A stretch of DNA of 55,172 bases from Bacteroidales bacterium (GTDB taxonomy: Bacteria; Bacteroidota; Bacteroidia; Bacteroidales; VadinHA17): NCBI GenBank assembly GCA_029974835.1, contig JARKQN010000058.1, forward strand, positions 1-55,172. Reading direction: 5' to 3'. Position 1 is the first letter of the stretch; every line of letters starts with the position of its first letter. Position numbers and translations under genes: made by a program. Shown here one piece after another: positions 23,727 through 52,741 of the stretch. A model generated the notes under the pieces. That model saw nothing but the letters and a program-made list of their open reading frames with translations. It made no database searches and was not told the DNA's origin.

Positions 23727-23816
23727 CATGTTACCTGCCTGTAAAATACCCAAAAACAAAAACCCGACGATCTCTCATCGGGTTTTGTATCTCCTGCGGT
23801 GCGGACGGGACTCGAA
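23727..23816. repeat. 90-bp direct repeat, copy 2 (contains the 3' end of intact tRNA-Asp)
   Basis: This is the partner of 23509-23598. It covers the downstream flank, terminator and last 20 nt of the complete tRNA-Asp gene. The six differences from copy 1 all lie in the flank and the terminator stem; the tRNA part is identical. Confidence 0.85.
23752..23786 (-). terminator. Terminator of tRNA-Asp
   Basis: On the minus strand AAAACCCGATGA (23786-23775) pairs with TCGTCGGGTTTT (23770-23759) through one G-U wobble, with a 4-nt loop and a following TTTTGTTTTTG tract. In the plus-strand RNA the same position is a C-A mismatch, so it favours minus-strand termination. It lies 10 nt past the tRNA end. 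Confidence 0.8.
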
Positions 23817-23871
23817 CCCGCGACCCCCGGCGTGACAGGCCGGTATTCTAACCAAACTGAACTACCGCACC
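23797..23871 (-). tRNA. tRNA-Asp (GTC anticodon)
   Basis: The minus strand folds into a complete cloverleaf. The acceptor stem is GGTGCGG/CCGCACC with discriminator G; the D-stem is GTTC/GAAT; the anticodon stem is CCGGC/GCCGG around loop CTGTCAC (anticodon GTC); the T-stem is GCGGG/CCCGT around TTCGAGT. The total is 75 nt and CCA is not encoded. A terminator follows directly. Confidence 0.96.
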
Positions 23872-44592: not shown

Positions 44593-46119
44593 CTAAAGTT
44601 CACAATAAAGGCCGTCATCCGCCAGGTTTCTGCATGGGTATCTCCATGTTAGGCCTTCCCCCTCAATAAGTTTGTCAGCATTTTCAGGCCCCCATGTTCC
44701 TGCAGGGTAGCCGAAAATCTTTATATCCAGGTTGGTTGCCCATGCAGTCTGGACGGGTTCAATAAATTTCCAGGCTGTTTCTACGATATCGTCGCGTGCA
44801 TAAAGTGTTGAATCCCCGTTAAACACATCGCCCAGCAATCGTTCATAAGCTGTTGGTACTCTTGTATTACCGAGGCTCGAATAATGAAAATCCATATTTA
44901 CATTCTCAACACTGTACCCGCCACCAGGTTTCTTGATTCCGAATTTAAGCAGGATGCCCTCATCTGGCTGAATCCTTATAATCATTTGATTGACTGCCTT
45001 GTTCATGTCGTCAACATGAAAAAGGAAATGGGGAGTAGGTTTAAAATGGACAACTATTTCAGTAACTTTAACAGGAAGACGTTTGCCGGTACGCATGTAA
45101 AACGGAACGCCTCCCCAGCGCCAGTTATCAATGAAGAACTTAATGGCCACATAGGTTTCAGTCCGTGAATTCGGGTCGACACCCGGTTCCTGCCTGTATG
45201 ACGGCAGGCACTGACCTCTGACAACCGAAGCAGTGTATTGTCCTCTGATAACATTTGAAGCAACCTCTTCTTCTTTAATAGGGTGGAGCGACTGGAAAAC
45301 CTTAAGTACCTCATTTCTGACAGCATCCGGATTAAGAGATGAAGGAGGCTCCATCGCTGCCAGGCCGGCAATCTGAAGAAGGTGATTCTGAACCATATCA
45401 CGCAAAGCTCCGGCCGTTTCGTAATAACTTCCCCTGTTTTCAACACCAATACTCTCAGCGGATGTAATCTCGATATGATGAATGTAGTTCCGGTTCCAGA
45501 GAGGTTCAAACATTCCGTTCGAAAACCTTGTAACAAGGATGTTCTGGACAGTCTCCTTGCCGAGGTAGTGATCTATCCTGTAAATCTGACTCTCGTTAAA
45601 AAGGGAATGAAGCTTCTGATTCAATTCCCTGCACGACCACAGATCGTAACCAAAAGGTTTCTCATAAACAAACCGCCTGTAGCCGTTATCCTCCCGGCCT
45701 AATCCCGACTCATAAAGCCTTTCGGAGATTACGGTATACATTCCGGGGGGTACAGCAAGGTAAAAAATACAGTTCAGCTTTTCTGCAGGCTTATCGTCAG
45801 TTTTTTCAACCAGCTCTTTCAACAACCGGTAATCTGCAGGAGAGCTCATATCAGAAGAAAAGTAAGTTAACCTTGAAAGAAATTTATCCACAATATTTTC
45901 TTCGGGTTTAATGCCTTCCGAAAACAAGTCAATGCCTTCTCTCATCCTTGCATTTAAATCTGACTGTGATATTTTCTTCCTTCCTGTTCCGATTATCTCC
46001 AGGTTCTCCGGAATAAGTTGCCGGGCATAAAGGGAATAGAGTGCAGGGATAAGTTTCCTGTAGGTCAGGTCGCCTGTAACTCCGAAAATGACAAATACAT
46101 TTTTTTCCGAACTATCCAT
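44593..46119 (-). CDS. zwf: Glucose-6-phosphate 1-dehydrogenase
   Basis: This 508-residue enzyme makes NADPH from glucose-6-phosphate. The NADP motif is FGVTGDLTYRKLIPAL, the substrate site is YRIDHYLGKETVQNIL, and PFYMRTGKRLP is also conserved. It heads the zwf-pgl operon. A minus-strand TACATTTG (46131-46124) lies directly before the start codon; used as a -7 element it would give an almost leaderless mRNA. Confidence 0.96.
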   Translation of the reverse strand: MDSSEKNVFVIFGVTGDLTYRKLIPALYSLYARQLIPENLEIIGTGRKKISQSDLNARMREGIDLFSEGIKPEENIVDKFLSRLTYFSSDMSSPADYRLLKELVEKTDDKPAEKLNCIFYLAVPPGMYTVISERLYESGLGREDNGYRRFVYEKPFGYDLWSCRELNQKLHSLFNESQIYRIDHYLGKETVQNILVTRFSNGMFEPLWNRNYIHHIEITSAESIGVENRGSYYETAGALRDMVQNHLLQIAGLAAMEPPSSLNPDAVRNEVLKVFQSLHPIKEEEVASNVIRGQYTASVVRGQCLPSYRQEPGVDPNSRTETYVAIKFFIDNWRWGGVPFYMRTGKRLPVKVTEIVVHFKPTPHFLFHVDDMNKAVNQMIIRIQPDEGILLKFGIKKPGGGYSVENVNMDFHYSSLGNTRVPTAYERLLGDVFNGDSTLYARDDIVETAWKFIEPVQTAWATNLDIKIFGYPAGTWGPENADKLIEGEGLTWRYPCRNLADDGLYCEL

Positions 46120-46304
46120 AAAACAAATGTAAGAAACTAAAATGAAGTCAGAGATTAATTGATAAATTTTATATCTGACAGTAAAATATGTGCACTATAC
46201 AGGGAGGTTTGTATTAAACAAGTTCATACGGGCATAGTTTCATCATTTCCCGGGATGTCAGAAAAAGAGGAAAGAATGTTAATAAGTATTTTTTATAAAT
46301 TTCT

Positions 46305-46334
46305 TTTGTTTTTAAAGTAGAAGTGTTATTTTTG
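46305..46334 (+). promoter_or_regulatory. Promoter of the gltB leader and gltBD
   Basis: TTTG (46305-46308) followed after 18 nt by TATTTTTG (46327-46334) fits the Bacteroidota -33/-7 consensus well. Transcription should begin near 46340, giving a ~180-nt leader before gltB and only about 12 nt before the leader peptide ATG. Confidence 0.65.
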
Positions 46335-46352
46335 TCAAAATTTATAAGACAG

Positions 46353-46415
46353 ATGAGATTAAATTTACTTAATAAATCAAACCTTATTGTTCTCAGGAGG
46401 TATATATCAGGCTGA
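46353..46415 (+). CDS. Putative gltB leader peptide, 20 aa
   Basis: ATG 46353 opens a 20-codon frame ending in TGA 46413-46415. The product begins MRLNLLNKSN and continues LIVLRRYISG. Codons 11-14 (bases 46383-46394) are four consecutive branched-chain codons, CTT ATT GTT CTC. They lie at the leading side of attenuator arm 1 (46390-46396), and the stop codon lies inside arm 2 (46412-46418), exactly where ribosome position would choose between alternative stems. The two AGG codons after them are also slow-codon candidates, and AGGAGG resembles a Shine-Dalgarno sequence. Coding is inferred from this fit, not from conservation. Confidence 0.6.
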   Translation: MRLNLLNKSNLIVLRRYISG

Positions 46416-46475
46416 GAATGGTAGTTTCATGATTGTTCAAAAACCGTTCTCAGCAAAAGAGAACGGTTTTTTTTT
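46390..46475 (+). promoter_or_regulatory. Attenuator with alternative stems upstream of gltB
   Basis: Three stems compete. Arms 1:2 are TTCTCAG (46390-46396) with CTGAGAA (46412-46418), 7 bp. Arms 2:3 (antiterminator) are GCTGAGAATGG (46411-46421) with CCGTTCTCAGC (46444-46454), 11 bp with one G-U. Arms 3:4 (terminator) are AAAAACCGTTCTC (46439-46451) with GAGAACGGTTTTT (46459-46471), 13 bp with loop AGCAAAA and T-run to 46475. Forming 2:3 prevents 3:4. The gltB ATG is 46 nt past the T-run. Confidence 0.75.
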
Positions 46476-46520: not shown

Positions 46521-49500
46521 ATGAGACCTGTAAACAGAGGACTTTATCTGAGCGAAGCTGAGCGCGACAGTTGCGGAATAGGATTTGTCGCTCACATCAA
46601 AGGGAAAAAATCGCATTCAATAATCTCAAAGGGACTTGAAATCCTGTGCAACATGAGCCACAGGGGTGCTGAAGGAGCCGACAGTAAGACTGGCGACGGA
46701 GCAGGGATAATGATCCAGGTGCCGAGAGATTTCTATCTAATCCAGGGTTATGCATTGCCGCCGGCAGGATGTTTCGGGACAGGAATTATTTTTCTGCCCA
46801 CCGACCCTGCCGATGCAGAAGCATGTGAAGGTATATTTAAAGACATCATCCTGGAAGAGGGACTTAAAATTTCAGGCTACCGCGACATTCCAAGGAATAA
46901 TTCTGTTCTGGGAGAAGTAGCCCTCTCCACCGAACCTTTCATGAAGCAGATCTTTATTGAAGGGGATCTTCAGGATTCAGATCTTGAACGAAAGCTCTAT
47001 ATAATCCGCAAAAGAACTGAAAAACAAATCAGGGAATCATCGATCAACCAGAAAGACTATTTCTACATACCCAGTCTGTCAACCAGAGTGCTTATTTACA
47101 AGGGTATGCTCACATCACACCAGTTAAAGGATTATTATTACGACCTTCAGGATGAGAGGATGCAGAGCGCAATTGCCCTGGTGCACTCCAGGTTCAGTAC
47201 AAACACATTCCCAAGCTGGGATCTTGCACAGCCTTTCAGGTTTCTCGGCCATAACGGAGAAATAAACACCATTAAGGGCAACAGGATCTGGATGGAAGCA
47301 AGGGAATCCCTTCTCAAATCGGATGTATTGGGTGATCTTTTGAAGATTTACCCTGTGATAGAACCTGGCAAGAGCGATTCAGCCTCACTCGACAATGTTC
47401 TTGAATTCCTTGTAATGAGCGGAAAATCCCTTCCCTATGCGATGTCAATTCTTATTCCGGAATCGATAAACATCCGCAATCCCATGCCTCAGGCACTAAG
47501 AGATTTTTACCATTACCATGCAACCTTTATGGAACCGTGGGATGGCCCGGCCTCACTCATCTTTTCAGATGGAAGATATATCGGCGGTATGCTCGACCGG
47601 AATGGTCTGAGGCCCTCCAGATATGTTATCACCTCAGGCGACCTTATAGTAATGAGTTCCGAAACCGGAGTCCAGAAATTTGAACCATCGGAAGTAATGG
47701 CAAAAGGTCGTCTTAAACCGGGTAAGATTCTTCTGATCGATACGGAAGAGGGGAAGATAATGTATGATGAAGAAATAAAATCAAAGCTGGCAGCCGAACA
47801 GCCTTACGGCAAGTGGATTGAGCAAAACCAGGTAAACCTTGAAGATATCGAGACCGGTCACGAAGTCCTTCCCGATATGGGTGAAGATTACAACAGGTAC
47901 CTGGTTTCATTTAATTATTCGAAAGAAGATATCGAGAAAATAATCCTGGAGATGGCAGCCACGGGGAAAGAGCCACTGTCAAGTATGGGAAACGATGTTC
48001 CGTTGGCTGTTCTATCCCAGAAACCCTACAGGTTATTCAATTATTTCAAACAACTCTTTGCTCAGGTTACAAATCCGCCGATAGATCCCATCAGGGAAGA
48101 ACTTGTTATGACCCTGTCGGGTTACCTTGGTTCTCTGCAGCAGAATCTGCTGGAAACCACACCCGACCATGTCAAAATGGTAAAGTTCAAAATACCCGTT
48201 ATTAATAATACCAGTTTTAACTTAATAAAAAACTTAAGATACAAAGGTTTTTCGTGTGTTACACTCAAAATGCACTTTGAGACAGCAGGTGGGGCGGAGG
48301 CACTTGTTTCGGCTGTTGAAAGACTCTGTTCCGAAGCCGAACGGGCGGTGGATGAAGGAAAGAATTACATTATTCTGTCCGACAGGGGTATTGATAAGGA
48401 TCATGCACCTGTTCCGTCACTTATGGCAGTATCTGCCGTTCATCACCACCTTGTGGCTAAGCGCAAGAGAATGCAGATCGACATAATTGTTGAATCGGCC
48501 GAGCCAAGGGAAGTGATGCATTTTGCTCTTCTTTTCGGATACGGGGCAAGTGTGATAAACCCTTACATGAGTTTTGCCATTATTGAAAAGCTTGTTAAGG
48601 AGAAAGCCATTCAGCTAAACTACAAAACGGCTGAGGAGAATTATATTAATTCCATCAGCAAAGGAATTCTGAAGATTATGTCCAAGATGGGAATAAGCAC
48701 TCTCAGAAGTTACCGGTCATCACAGATATTTGAAGCTGTAGGTCTCAGCAGTGAGGTTACCGAAAGATATTTCTCAGGCACTCCTTCAAGGATTGAGGGT
48801 ATTGGCTTTGAGGAGATTGCACGTGAAGCATCGATTCCTCACAGCAAGGCATTCAGCCAGGAAACACTCCCGGAAATCCTTACAGAAGGTGTGTACTCAT
48901 ATCGTAAGTACGGGGAGCACCATGCCTGGAATCCTGAGACAATTGCCCTTCTGCAGATGAGTACAAGGACTAATGACTACAACAAATTCAGGGAATTCTC
49001 GGCAAAGGTCAATGCAGACACTTCAAAACCCTCGTTTTTAAGGGGCATGTTTAAAATCAGGGCAGGTAATCCCGTACCGCTGGCCGAAGTTGAACCTGCT
49101 TCCGATATTATGAAGAGGTTTGTAACAGGAGCTATGTCGTTCGGATCAATAAGCCGCGAAGCCCATGAAACCATTGCCATTGCAATGAACAGGATAGGCG
49201 GCAGAAGCAACACAGGTGAGGGCGGGGAAGATCCTGAACGATTCCGGCCCGGGAAAGACGGGGTGAGCACCAGAAGCGCCATCAAGCAGGTAGCCAGCGG
49301 CAGGTTCGGGGTAACAGCTGAGTACCTTGTCAATGCGGACGAAATCCAGATAAAAATTGCACAGGGAGCCAAACCCGGTGAAGGAGGCCAGCTCCCGGGT
49401 CATAAAATAGACAAAATTATCGCCCGCACAAGATACTCCATTCCGGGGATAACACTGATCTCTCCCCCGCCCCATCATGATATATATTCTATCGAGGACC

Positions 49501-51053
49501 TTGCTCAGCTGATTTTTGATCTCAAAAATGTCAATCCTGACGCAAAAATAAGTGTCAAACTTGTCTCCGAAAGCGGAGTGGGTACAATAGCAGCAGGCGT
49601 TGTAAAAGCCAAAGCTGATATAGTTACCATCAGCGGATACGAAGGAGGAACGGGTGCCAGTCCCGCCTCATCAATTAAACATGCAGGATTACCTCTTGAG
49701 ATGGGTCTTGCCGAAACACAGCAGACCCTTGTGATGAACAATCTCAGAAAAAGAGTGGTGCTTCAGGCCGACGGGCAGCTGAAAACCGGCTTCGATATAG
49801 TAATGGCAGCAATTATGGGAGCCGAGGAATATGGTTTTGCAACGGCCGCCCTGGTAGTGCTTGGATGCGTGATGATGAGAAAATGCCACCTGAACACCTG
49901 TCCTGCAGGAATAGCAACTCAGAACGAAGTATTAAGAAAAAGATTCCTTGGCAAAGCTGATTTTCTCGTAAACTACTTCACCTTTCTTGCAGAAGAGGTT
50001 AGGGAAATACTTGCCTCTGCAGGCTACAGGTCGCTCAATGAAATTATCGGAAGGTTTGACCTTCTGGAAAGAAACCACGATGTTGATCACTGGAAGACCA
50101 GAAAACTTGATCTTACCGCATTTACCCGGATGCCGGAGGGCTCGTCAGTAAATCCTTTGCGTTGTGTTGAAAAACAGAAGCATCCGGTTGATGAGGTTCT
50201 CGACAGGGAACTTATTTCACTATGCAATGAAGCTATTGAGGAGAGGAAGCCTGTTAACATTGAGAAAGAGATAAAAAACACCGACCGGGCGGTGGGTGCA
50301 ATGCTCTCGGGCGTAATAGCTAAAAAATACGGCAATGAAGGGTTGCCCGAGGGTACTGTTAAATGTCATTTCAGGGGCTCGGCCGGACAGAGTTTTGGTG
50401 CATTCCTTGTAAGAGGTGTTGAGTTCAGGCTTGAAGGTGATTCGAATGATTACCTGGGCAAGGGACTTTCCGGCGGCAGGATCATTGTCGTGCCACCTGC
50501 AGGAACACGGTTTGAGCCGGATAAAAATATAATTATCGGAAACACTGTCTTATACGGTGCAACAGGCGGCGAGGTGTATATATCAGGCATGGCCGGTGAA
50601 AGATTTGCGGTAAGAAACAGCGGAGCAATTGCAGTCATAGAAGGCGTGGGAAATCACTGCTGCGAGTACATGACCGGAGGAAGGGTAGTAGTACTCGGCT
50701 CGACGGGCAATAATTTCGCAGCGGGTATGAGCGGAGGCATTGCGTATGTATATAACGAGACCGGCAATTTTGATTATTTCTGTAACATGAGCATGGTTGA
50801 GCTTTCCCTTGTTGAGGAGATAAGTGAGGCACATGAGTTGCGCAGGCTTTTGTCGATGCATCACTATTACACCGGCAGCAGTAAAGCCAGGAAGATACTG
50901 GATGACTTTGACAATCAGCTTGGTATGTTTATCAAGGTTATACCCTATGATTACAAGAAGGTTTTGCAGGAACAGAAGCTGGAAGAGATAAAGAAGAAAA
51001 TCGCCGGAGTTGAATTGGATGTTGAGTTTGGTTCGGGAGGGCATCATCATTGA
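46521..51053 (+). CDS. gltB: Glutamate synthase large subunit
   Basis: This 1510-residue enzyme makes two glutamates from glutamine and 2-oxoglutarate. A 17-residue propeptide precedes the catalytic Cys18 (AERDSCGIGFVAHIKG). The class II amidotransferase domain spans about 18-400, the central domain about 470-750 and the FMN domain about 800-1190, with GGEDPERFRPGKDG, the ISGYEGGTGASPASS loop and 3Fe-4S cysteines in CVMMRKCHLNTCPAG. A C-terminal beta-helix (GGRVVVLGSTGNNFAAGMSG) completes the protein. Expression probably passes through the attenuator upstream. gltD lies 269 nt downstream beyond a tandem repeat array. Confidence 0.97.
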   Translation: MRPVNRGLYLSEAERDSCGIGFVAHIKGKKSHSIISKGLEILCNMSHRGAEGADSKTGDGAGIMIQVPRDFYLIQGYALPPAGCFGTGIIFLPTDPADAEACEGIFKDIILEEGLKISGYRDIPRNNSVLGEVALSTEPFMKQIFIEGDLQDSDLERKLYIIRKRTEKQIRESSINQKDYFYIPSLSTRVLIYKGMLTSHQLKDYYYDLQDERMQSAIALVHSRFSTNTFPSWDLAQPFRFLGHNGEINTIKGNRIWMEARESLLKSDVLGDLLKIYPVIEPGKSDSASLDNVLEFLVMSGKSLPYAMSILIPESINIRNPMPQALRDFYHYHATFMEPWDGPASLIFSDGRYIGGMLDRNGLRPSRYVITSGDLIVMSSETGVQKFEPSEVMAKGRLKPGKILLIDTEEGKIMYDEEIKSKLAAEQPYGKWIEQNQVNLEDIETGHEVLPDMGEDYNRYLVSFNYSKEDIEKIILEMAATGKEPLSSMGNDVPLAVLSQKPYRLFNYFKQLFAQVTNPPIDPIREELVMTLSGYLGSLQQNLLETTPDHVKMVKFKIPVINNTSFNLIKNLRYKGFSCVTLKMHFETAGGAEALVSAVERLCSEAERAVDEGKNYIILSDRGIDKDHAPVPSLMAVSAVHHHLVAKRKRMQIDIIVESAEPREVMHFALLFGYGASVINPYMSFAIIEKLVKEKAIQLNYKTAEENYINSISKGILKIMSKMGISTLRSYRSSQIFEAVGLSSEVTERYFSGTPSRIEGIGFEEIAREASIPHSKAFSQETLPEILTEGVYSYRKYGEHHAWNPETIALLQMSTRTNDYNKFREFSAKVNADTSKPSFLRGMFKIRAGNPVPLAEVEPASDIMKRFVTGAMSFGSISREAHETIAIAMNRIGGRSNTGEGGEDPERFRPGKDGVSTRSAIKQVASGRFGVTAEYLVNADEIQIKIAQGAKPGEGGQLPGHKIDKIIARTRYSIPGITLISPPPHHDIYSIEDLAQLIFDLKNVNPDAKISVKLVSESGVGTIAAGVVKAKADIVTISGYEGGTGASPASSIKHAGLPLEMGLAETQQTLVMNNLRKRVVLQADGQLKTGFDIVMAAIMGAEEYGFATAALVVLGCVMMRKCHLNTCPAGIATQNEVLRKRFLGKADFLVNYFTFLAEEVREILASAGYRSLNEIIGRFDLLERNHDVDHWKTRKLDLTAFTRMPEGSSVNPLRCVEKQKHPVDEVLDRELISLCNEAIEERKPVNIEKEIKNTDRAVGAMLSGVIAKKYGNEGLPEGTVKCHFRGSAGQSFGAFLVRGVEFRLEGDSNDYLGKGLSGGRIIVVPPAGTRFEPDKNIIIGNTVLYGATGGEVYISGMAGERFAVRNSGAIAVIEGVGNHCCEYMTGGRVVVLGSTGNNFAAGMSGGIAYVYNETGNFDYFCNMSMVELSLVEEISEAHELRRLLSMHHYYTGSSKARKILDDFDNQLGMFIKVIPYDYKKVLQEQKLEEIKKKIAGVELDVEFGSGGHHH

Positions 51054-51322: not shown

Positions 51323-52741
51323 ATGGCCGACCCTACAGGATTTCTGAAAGTAAAACGTAAAGAGGCTGGCAACAGACCTGTGAACGAAAGAATATGCGAT
51401 TTCAGCGAGGTTGAACAGGTGCTCAACAGCGACGACCGCATGCTGCAGGCATCAAGATGCATGGACTGCGGTATTCCATTCTGCCACTGGGCCTGCCCCG
51501 TCGATAATCTTATACCCGAATGGAACGACCTGCTCTACAAGGGAGACTGGAAAAAAGCATACGAAAGACTTAACCAGACAAATAACTTTCCGGAATTTAC
51601 AGGCAGAATCTGCCCGGCTCCCTGCGAACACGCCTGCGTACTAAATATTGGTGAAGAGCCGGTTACCATTCGCGAAAACGAAGTGGCCATAACCGAAAAA
51701 GCCTTCTCGGAGGGGTATATCAAACCAAAACCTGCCCGTAAAAAATCAGGTAAAAAAGTCGCTGTTATAGGAAGCGGACCCGCCGGAATGGCAGCTGCCG
51801 ACCTCCTTAACAAATGGGGACACTCCGTTACACTGTTCGAGAAAGACCCGAAAGCCGGAGGTCTCCTAAGGTACGGCATCCCTGACTTTAAACTAAGCAA
51901 GTCAACCATCGACCGACGTCTTGACTTAATGACATTCGAAGGTCTGGAGATAAGAACCGGAACCGAAATCGGAAAAGATATTCCCGGAAAGGTCCTTCTT
52001 AACATGTACGACGCAGTATGTATCGCCATTGGGGCCATGAAACCGCGCGACCTGAATATTGAAGGCAGAAACCTTAAGGGAATTCATTTTGCTATGGATT
52101 TTCTAAAACGGCAGAACCGTATAAATGACGGCGAAATTTTGCCTCCTTCCGACCGTATTTCGGCCGAAGGTTTGAAAGTCGTCGTTCTTGGCGGCGGCGA
52201 CACCGGATCAGACTGTGTGGGTACAGCTATAAGACAAAAAGCTGCAAGTGTTACACAGATCGAGATCATGCCCAGACCTCCCGAGAAACGTCTACCTGCC
52301 AACCCATGGCCCTTTGTTGCTAAAACTCTTAAAACAAGCACATCACATGAAGAGGGTTGCGAACGACTATGGAGCGTTTCCACTTTAAGATTCATTGGCA
52401 ATGACGGATATCTGACCGGCCTTGAAATTGAAGATGTCGAATGGAAAAATGAAAATGGAAAACTTTCAATGATCCCCCTTCCGGATACGCGAAGGATTGT
52501 GCCTGCCGATATGGCGCTGCTGGCTCTGGGCTTTGTCCATCCCGTAACTGAAGGTCTTGTCAGTGAACTGGGTCTTGCGCTCGACAACCGTAACAACATC
52601 AGAACTGACGAATGCTGCAGGACTAATGTTACAAAAGTATTTGCAGCCGGCGATTCCGTTTCCGGCGCAAGCCTGGTTGTGAATGCCATCGCATCCGGCA
52701 GAAAAGCCGCCAGGGAAATTGACAGGTTCCTGAAAGAATAA
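51323..52741 (+). CDS. gltD: Glutamate synthase small subunit
   Basis: This 472-residue FAD/NAD(P)H oxidoreductase passes electrons to GltB. Two cysteine clusters for 4Fe-4S centres are CMDCGIPFCHWACPVDN and CPAPCEHACVL. The FAD motif is AVIGSGPAGMAAADLL and the NAD(P) motif VVLGGGDTGSDCVG. A closing FAD segment reads KVFAAGDSVSGASLVVNAI. Its start codon directly follows the 17-bp repeat array, so the array also forms its translation-initiation region. Confidence 0.96.
   Translation: MADPTGFLKVKRKEAGNRPVNERICDFSEVEQVLNSDDRMLQASRCMDCGIPFCHWACPVDNLIPEWNDLLYKGDWKKAYERLNQTNNFPEFTGRICPAPCEHACVLNIGEEPVTIRENEVAITEKAFSEGYIKPKPARKKSGKKVAVIGSGPAGMAAADLLNKWGHSVTLFEKDPKAGGLLRYGIPDFKLSKSTIDRRLDLMTFEGLEIRTGTEIGKDIPGKVLLNMYDAVCIAIGAMKPRDLNIEGRNLKGIHFAMDFLKRQNRINDGEILPPSDRISAEGLKVVVLGGGDTGSDCVGTAIRQKAASVTQIEIMPRPPEKRLPANPWPFVAKTLKTSTSHEEGCERLWSVSTLRFIGNDGYLTGLEIEDVEWKNENGKLSMIPLPDTRRIVPADMALLALGFVHPVTEGLVSELGLALDNRNNIRTDECCRTNVTKVFAAGDSVSGASLVVNAIASGRKAAREIDRFLKE

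Follow-up and report, generated by a model that had tools for sequence, protein, structure and literature searches.

The leader upstream of gltB

The window, meaning the whole stretch of 55,172 nucleotides analysed here, encodes the large subunit of glutamate synthase, gltB (46521-51053, plus strand; NF008730, 1808.9 bits), and its small subunit, gltD (51323-52741, plus strand; TIGR01317, 606.6 bits). The region before gltB contains a leader whose features all lie on the plus strand. An open reading frame (ORF) of 20 codons, MRLNLLNKSNLIVLRRYISG, extends over 46353-46415 and ends in the stop codon UGA at 46413-46415. Its codons 11-14, CTT ATT GTT CTC (46383-46394), which are codons -10 to -7 when counted from the stop, encode Leu-Ile-Val-Leu, a run of four branched-chain codons at the proposed stalling position, and are the candidate control codons. 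Arm 1, TTCTCAG (46390-46396), is the partner of arm 2, CTGAGAATGGT (46412-46422, with the core GAGAAUGG), which overlaps the stop codon and makes the 5' arm of an antiterminator. Arm 3, ACCGTTCTCAG (46443-46453), makes the 3' arm of the antiterminator, with 11 pairs including one G-U, and part of the 5' arm of an intrinsic terminator hairpin of 13 pairs, which the terminator scan places at 46439-46471 and which is followed by a U-run. Mutually exclusive pairings 1:2, 2:3 and 3:4 are present, as possible pairings, together with the terminator. The preliminary description of this DNA had listed the ORF, the Leu-Ile-Val-Leu codons, arm 1, an 11-bp antiterminator and a 13-bp terminator, and all are read in the sequence as claimed; arm 2 exists as well, one base away from the position 46411-46421 given for it.

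The promoter that had been claimed takes a different form from a sigma-70 promoter. A sigma-70 scan found no site immediately 5' of the ORF, the nearest on the same strand lying at 46159-46187. A pattern match predicts a Bacteroidota-type promoter at 46305-46334 on the plus strand, made of TTTG (46305-46308) and TATTTTTG (46327-46334), an assignment by what we take to be the promoter consensus of Bacteroidota. In 27 of the 29 dissimilar leaders from the window's genus, a TAnnTTTG-like box occurs no more than 50 nt from where the ORF begins, compared to a rate of 0.21 in mononucleotide shuffles, and its median distance to the ORF start in genus leaders is 26 nt. The Bacteroidota-type promoter fits the leader better than a sigma-70 promoter.

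The fold of the whole leader is equalled in none of 200 dinucleotide shuffles (z -3.74); the terminator scan by itself performs at chance level, with two sites found and 2.0 expected. At Rfam gathering scores the leader region has no match, and the whole window returns only a tRNA at 23797-23871. Footprint folding, with the ribosome edge assumed 14 nt beyond the A-site codon, predicts that the antiterminator forms when the ribosome stalls at codons 11-14 and that the terminator forms when it stands at codon 16 or at the stop, in agreement with the behaviour proposed in the preliminary description. With no ribosome on the RNA, 1:2 plus terminator is the fold of the full leader, and 2:3 is that of an RNA ending at arm 3. 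The outcome without translation would thus hinge on kinetics, because 2:3 is the predicted pairing at the moment when polymerase reaches the end of arm 3. Assignment of the terminator to a neighbouring gene was rejected, as transcription of zwf, the gene upstream (44593-46119, minus strand), leads away from it.

Recurrence of the element and its pairings

Among the first 16 loci ranked by GltB similarity (L002-L017), the element was recognized by eye in 14, independently of any RNA model; it was not seen by eye before gltB in L005 and L016, nor in L018-L024. A covariance model, R1, was built from 15 leaders with the terminator as its structure. Searches with R1 gave matches in 80 of 117 family genomes (E up to 0.1), where 90 of 108 listed places were examined. 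An order-level sample of 393 genomes gave 77 with matches (E up to 0.01), and 60 of 114 listed places were read; the remaining places of both searches were weaker-scoring, antisense or already in the set. At the level of the class, 32 of 395 genomes matched (E up to 0.003), and gltB was not seen among 28 of the 34 listed places, which were assigned by downstream motif. The order-level places, 89 family matches, the window and ten loci selected by GltB make up a set of 160 leaders. By downstream gene these comprise 79 gltB, 44 ilvD, 15 leuA, 8 hisG, 1 ilvB and 13 unclassified leaders, where the counts other than gltB are lower bounds because R1 misses ilvD leaders in the window's genus and detects the hisG leader of the window's own genome only at E 0.2.

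Of 62 genomes from the window's genus, 48 contain the element 5' of gltB, with 50 leaders in total. Twelve of the 14 genomes lacking it show no match to the first 400 residues of GltB (E 1e-30); these assemblies are 69-100% complete, so some are incomplete. The other two, G073 and G063, have gltB without the leader, the G063 gene being divergent (57%). By eye, this divergent leaderless gltB (L305) seems to lie directly 3' of an asnA-like gene. Beyond weaker cases, gltB leaders occur in five families (f1, f8, f15, f43 and f65). A hairpin scan of 600 nt at the 79 other GltB loci with a usable start found this terminator in close relatives only, a weak negative since the scan also missed five of the 14 leaders recognized by eye (L007, L008, L009, L010 and L013).

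An ORF of 12-36 codons that ends near arm 2 is present in 75 of the 79 gltB leaders, and in 66 of those 75 the stop lies directly at arm 2. The leaders where none was found are L093, L096, L116 and L195, while L127 contains runs of N; codon statistics therefore cover 74 gltB leaders, 46 from the genus and 28 from elsewhere. Removal of leaders at least 75% identical, including the duplicate pair L015/L197, left dissimilar sets of 29 genus leaders (window included) and 22 from elsewhere. Arm 2, the terminator and the 26 nt before arm 2 are partly selected features in these sets, because the model used for finding the leaders includes them. The element before gltB is confirmed as real, and a chance origin is rejected by its recurrence before gltB in many species.

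The pairings differ in how far sequence variation can speak for them. For covariation, 76 of the 79 gltB loci were aligned by fitting to the terminator structure (one of the 77 rows is an antisense match). Changes on both sides of a terminator pair occur in 32 cells, compared to 9.4 in shuffles, and none of 500 shuffles reaches 32. Arm 2 is nearly invariant over 75 distinct rows, and the antiterminator pairing 2:3 is possible in 97.9% of alignment cells. No covariation of arms 2:3 is demonstrable within gltB leaders, because these arms hardly vary. Of the compensatory changes foreseen in the preliminary description, those of the terminator pairs (3:4) are found, and arms 2 and 3 are too constant within gltB for those of 2:3. 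Antiterminators of at least seven pairs can form in 67 of 79 gltB, 26 of 42 ilvD, 12 of 15 leuA and all eight hisG leaders, whose arm sequences are different.

Arm 1:2 pairing is stronger than in shuffles as a group property. Mean values for pairing between the upstream portion of the ORF and arm 2 are -9.15 vs -7.36 for gltB in the genus, -7.20 vs -5.96 for gltB elsewhere, -12.28 vs -9.00 for ilvD and -12.55 vs -9.12 for leuA. None of 100 shuffles matches the group mean of either gltB group, of ilvD or of leuA, and one of 100 matches that of hisG (three leaders). Single leaders fall in the best 10% of their own shuffles in 11 of 29 cases for genus gltB, 6 of 22 for gltB elsewhere, 16 of 24 for ilvD, 8 of 11 for leuA and 2 of 3 for hisG. 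For the window, two of 100 shuffles pair equally well. Arm 1 is weak in many single gltB leaders.

Leaders of ilvD, leuA and hisG

Leaders before ilvD, leuA and hisG in related genomes contain the promoter box, the ORF and the arms in the same order as the gltB leader. In genomes outside the window's genus, the GAGAAUGG core also occurs in many leaders of ilvD and leuA, whereas ilvD leaders within the genus have arms of different sequence from those of gltB. The peptides are of textbook composition. The share of Ile, Leu and Val is 0.587 in ilvD peptides (shuffles 0.301; 24 dissimilar leaders) and 0.528 in leuA peptides (shuffles 0.319; 11 dissimilar leaders), that is 59% and 53% compared to 32% for gltB in the genus. 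The hisG peptides have runs of His, with a His share of 0.308 compared to 0.089 in shuffles, from only three dissimilar leaders.

The window's own genome encodes an ilvD leader, MNKGLLLIISIIIILLLEKR, with Ile, Leu or Val at 12 of 19 residues, and a hisG leader, MNYFFTHHHHYGKCPQARM. Both have competing arms whose sequence is unlike that of the gltB arms. These leaders, of textbook attenuator form, belong to one ilv-leu-his cluster (L271, G000:C28:1000-20000). Across the genus, 26 of 30 ilvD loci could be parsed and 24 have such an ORF, with 90% Ile, Leu or Val at codons -10 to -7, a figure uncorrected for kinship. Attenuation of gltB is very likely because its element recurs and because leaders of the same build, with textbook peptides, lie before ilvD, leuA and hisG in the relatives sampled.

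Several further leaders and motifs were seen. In L296, from another family of the class (match 1501-1590), an Asn-rich ORF, MMNFYFNNNFNYATPPGGD, and a terminator precede asnA (1628-2662), which encodes aspartate-ammonia ligase; this leader is a candidate asparagine attenuator. In L275, L277, L278 and L282, ORFs such as MKNTILLVVIIIHSPG and a terminator precede genes resembling ilvE (branched-chain aminotransferase), an identity checked on a protein fragment for L275 only. A stretch resembling AAUGGURUG follows the ORF stop in gltB, ilvD, leuA and hisG leaders (AAUGGUAGU, 46417-46425, in the window), lies outside the pairing arms in hisG leaders, and is possibly a polymerase pause site. Many gltB leaders in the genus (L094, L114 and L120 among them) have the sequence GGATTAGGGAT directly before the terminator, and it is missing from the window, G049, G081 and some other genus leaders.

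Leader codons and the proposed switch

At codons -10 to -7 of the 29 dissimilar genus gltB leaders, 61 of 116 codons encode Ile, Leu or Val in frame, compared to 25 and 11 of 116 in the other two frames (0.53 vs 0.22 and 0.09). The block was tested after the per-position table had been viewed, and its statistics come from related species. Permutation of codons within leaders gives a mean of 36.9, and none of 5000 permutations reaches 61. The count is 57 of 112 without the window and 51 of 96 in the 24 leaders below 58% identity. The bias is weaker than in ilvD (87 of 96) or leuA (33 of 44), and it is absent from gltB leaders outside the genus, with 20 of 88 in frame compared to 26 and 16 of 88 in the other frames. 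Codon -8 in the genus has T as its second base in 21 of 27 leaders, while its first base varies freely among all four. Two near relatives as judged from GltB, G049 and G081, retain VIL and IVL in codons 12-14.

Over whole peptides, the excess of Ile, Leu and Val in genus gltB leaders is small (0.318 vs 0.266, reached by one of 300 shuffles), so that these residues do not dominate the peptide; outside the genus the share is 0.229 vs 0.240, with Lys and His raised. The window peptide, with 8 of 19, is equalled by 21% of its own shuffles, and the pooled count for the window, G049 and G081, 24 of 57, is reached in 16 of 1000 shuffles. Substitutions in genus gltB ORFs are spread nearly evenly over the codon positions (734:779:822), and their synonymous share, 167 of 697 (0.24), is close to the neutral value of 0.264, compared to 125 of 247 in ilvD and 75 of 189 in f8-type gltB leaders. 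From the even substitutions and the neutral synonymous share it follows that the genus gltB peptide as a whole is unconserved. Sensing of branched-chain amino acids, as put forward in the preliminary description, is partly supported, by the block in the genus and not beyond the genus. That description had held that homologous leaders with a terminator and no Leu, Ile or Val codons would speak against it, and in other families leaders that keep the terminator and the ORF without such a block do exist. The short ORF it expected before gltB in relatives is there in general; the block is restricted to the window's genus.

Other amino acids were considered as signals. Glutamate sensing was rejected because gltB leaders show a deficit of Glu, Gln and Asp codons (genus 0.051 vs 0.094, elsewhere 0.061 vs 0.109), a weak argument since ilvD leaders are depleted as well. 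The window has AGGAGG at 46395-46400 (plus strand). Almost all gltB leaders of the genus have an AGG that starts 19 nt ahead of the arm 2 core. It is found in 27 of 29 dissimilar genus leaders, the exceptions being L138 at -20 (out of frame) and L141 at -18; it occurs in 4 of 22 leaders elsewhere and has no fixed place in ilvD and leuA leaders. In the three genes used for codon counting, AGG is not rare; with 20 per 1000 codons it is the Arg codon used most. Arg was rejected as control amino acid because AGG holds its distance to arm 2 even where the stop comes earlier (L105 and L117), and the conserved AGG looks like an RNA-level feature.

The block may owe its composition to the arm rather than to the amino acids. 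In an unspecific form of the switch, translation-coupled all the same, the ORF would report translation speed or overall amino-acid supply, and the Ile/Leu/Val bias would be a by-product of arm 1 (AUUCUC = Ile-Leu) and base composition. Part of the block signal does arise in this way, because arm 1, as the complement of GAGAAU, itself reads Ile-Leu in the leader frame: the 12 leaders whose block pairs with arm 2 have 32 of 48 Ile, Leu or Val, while the bias is weaker, 29 of 68, in the 17 whose block does not. Glutamate as universal amino donor would suit a general signal, as would gltB peptides that are unconserved in the genus and of different make-up in other families. Even the leaders without arm 1 in the block favour the frame, however (29 vs 18 and 6 of 68), and pairing would not demand the T at the second base of codon -8 while the first base is free. 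We regard the unspecific form as possible but rather unlikely.

Three further readings fare worse. The GAGAAUGG core varies less than pairing would allow, down to the U of a G-U pair, as might be expected if a protein or small molecule read the terminator-antiterminator switch and the ORF were incidental; the ORF in 75 of 79 gltB leaders, the ORFs coding for His or Ile/Leu/Val in the same architecture at hisG, ilvD and leuA, and the absence of an Rfam match in the region at gathering scores make this very unlikely. Arrest of the ribosome by the nascent peptide itself, upon sensing a metabolite, is brought to mind by the motif E-[L/F]-x-G-L-T-E, seen by eye in five gltB leaders of a different kind, L133, L180, L181, L182 and L195. 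The different synonymous codons that encode it suggest selection on the peptide (L195 being without a called ORF), but peptides of the window's genus are unconserved and the motif was not seen among those listed, so that such arrest is highly improbable here. Terminator-like sites are common by chance in the region, as would suit a plain or partial terminator without regulation; with a competing antiterminator arm and an ORF kept across families, such a terminator is scarcely credible.

The reading of the leader as a ribosome-mediated attenuator, offered in the preliminary description, is upheld by the frequency of the ORF, the position of its stop at arm 2, the competing pairings and the shared architecture at ilvD, leuA and hisG. 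That gltBD carries a ribosome-mediated transcription attenuator is very likely on this comparative evidence. The fuller proposal, that 46327-46475 is such an attenuator with a control block that is branched-chain-biased but diluted in the genus, is probable. RNA polymerase would start near 46340, with a ribosome following on the leader ORF. A ribosome that reaches UGA at 46413 would cover arm 2, the terminator would form and transcription would end at about 46475. A ribosome slowed at codons 11-14, as upon starvation, would cover arm 1 and leave arm 2 free to pair with arm 3, blocking the terminator so that gltB is made. In the absence of translation, the full leader would favour 1:2 plus terminator. 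Slow translation of the leader would therefore switch glutamate synthase on. Because the genus block is biased but diluted, the switch probably responds jointly to the supply of branched-chain and of other amino acids, and the odds lean somewhat toward branched-chain amino acids as the main signal in the window species.

Most interesting is that the switch persists in gltB leaders across families whose leader codons differ in content. A tentative reading, which we consider less than even in its chances, is that the gltB switch has been kept in several families of the order while the sensed amino acids were exchanged between lineages. Under the same tentative reading the contents would be branched-chain in the window's genus, and Lys/His-rich or a recurring peptide motif elsewhere. 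Attenuation usually lets one amino acid control its own pathway; with exchange, it would report the demand of groups of amino acids to glutamate synthesis rather than the operon's own product. In either case, with a working attenuator here, the enzyme that gives the amino group for nearly all amino acids would be tied to amino-acid supply. The gltB, ilvD, leuA and hisG leaders of relatives form a jointly testable set, in which the ilvD and hisG leaders of the window's own genome are built-in positive controls.

Leader-peptide attenuators control branched-chain operons in proteobacteria and actinobacteria; ilvBNC of Corynebacterium glutamicum is reportedly one such operon. Like these, the gltB leader has a short ORF with Leu, Ile and Val codons, alternative hairpins and an intrinsic terminator. 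It differs in that gltB is the presumed regulated gene, the control block is diluted and the promoter is of Bacteroidota type. The proposed gltB attenuator would act like the ilv/leu type, but its peptide is not dominated by branched-chain residues as in that type. The control amino acid is usually, though not necessarily, the product of the operon, and gltBD makes glutamate. In E. coli, gltBD is regulated by Lrp and ArgR. We found no leader-peptide attenuator of gltB in the open-licence literature searched, and older comparative studies may cover ilv, leu and his leaders of Bacteroidota. In the same phylum, structured 5' elements are described in Flavobacterium psychrophilum before amino-acid operons, including pheA and hisG, where the authors report strong clues for leader-peptide attenuation; the main text of that report names neither gltB nor glutamate synthase (PMC9723704). 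The gltD motif, as described in PMC8632094, is a riboswitch candidate of Selenomonadales and Veillonellales in which a hairpin appears to occlude the ribosome-binding site. Like the leader in the window, it is a candidate for RNA control of a glutamate synthase gene, and it differs from that leader in being a riboswitch candidate (PMC8632094).
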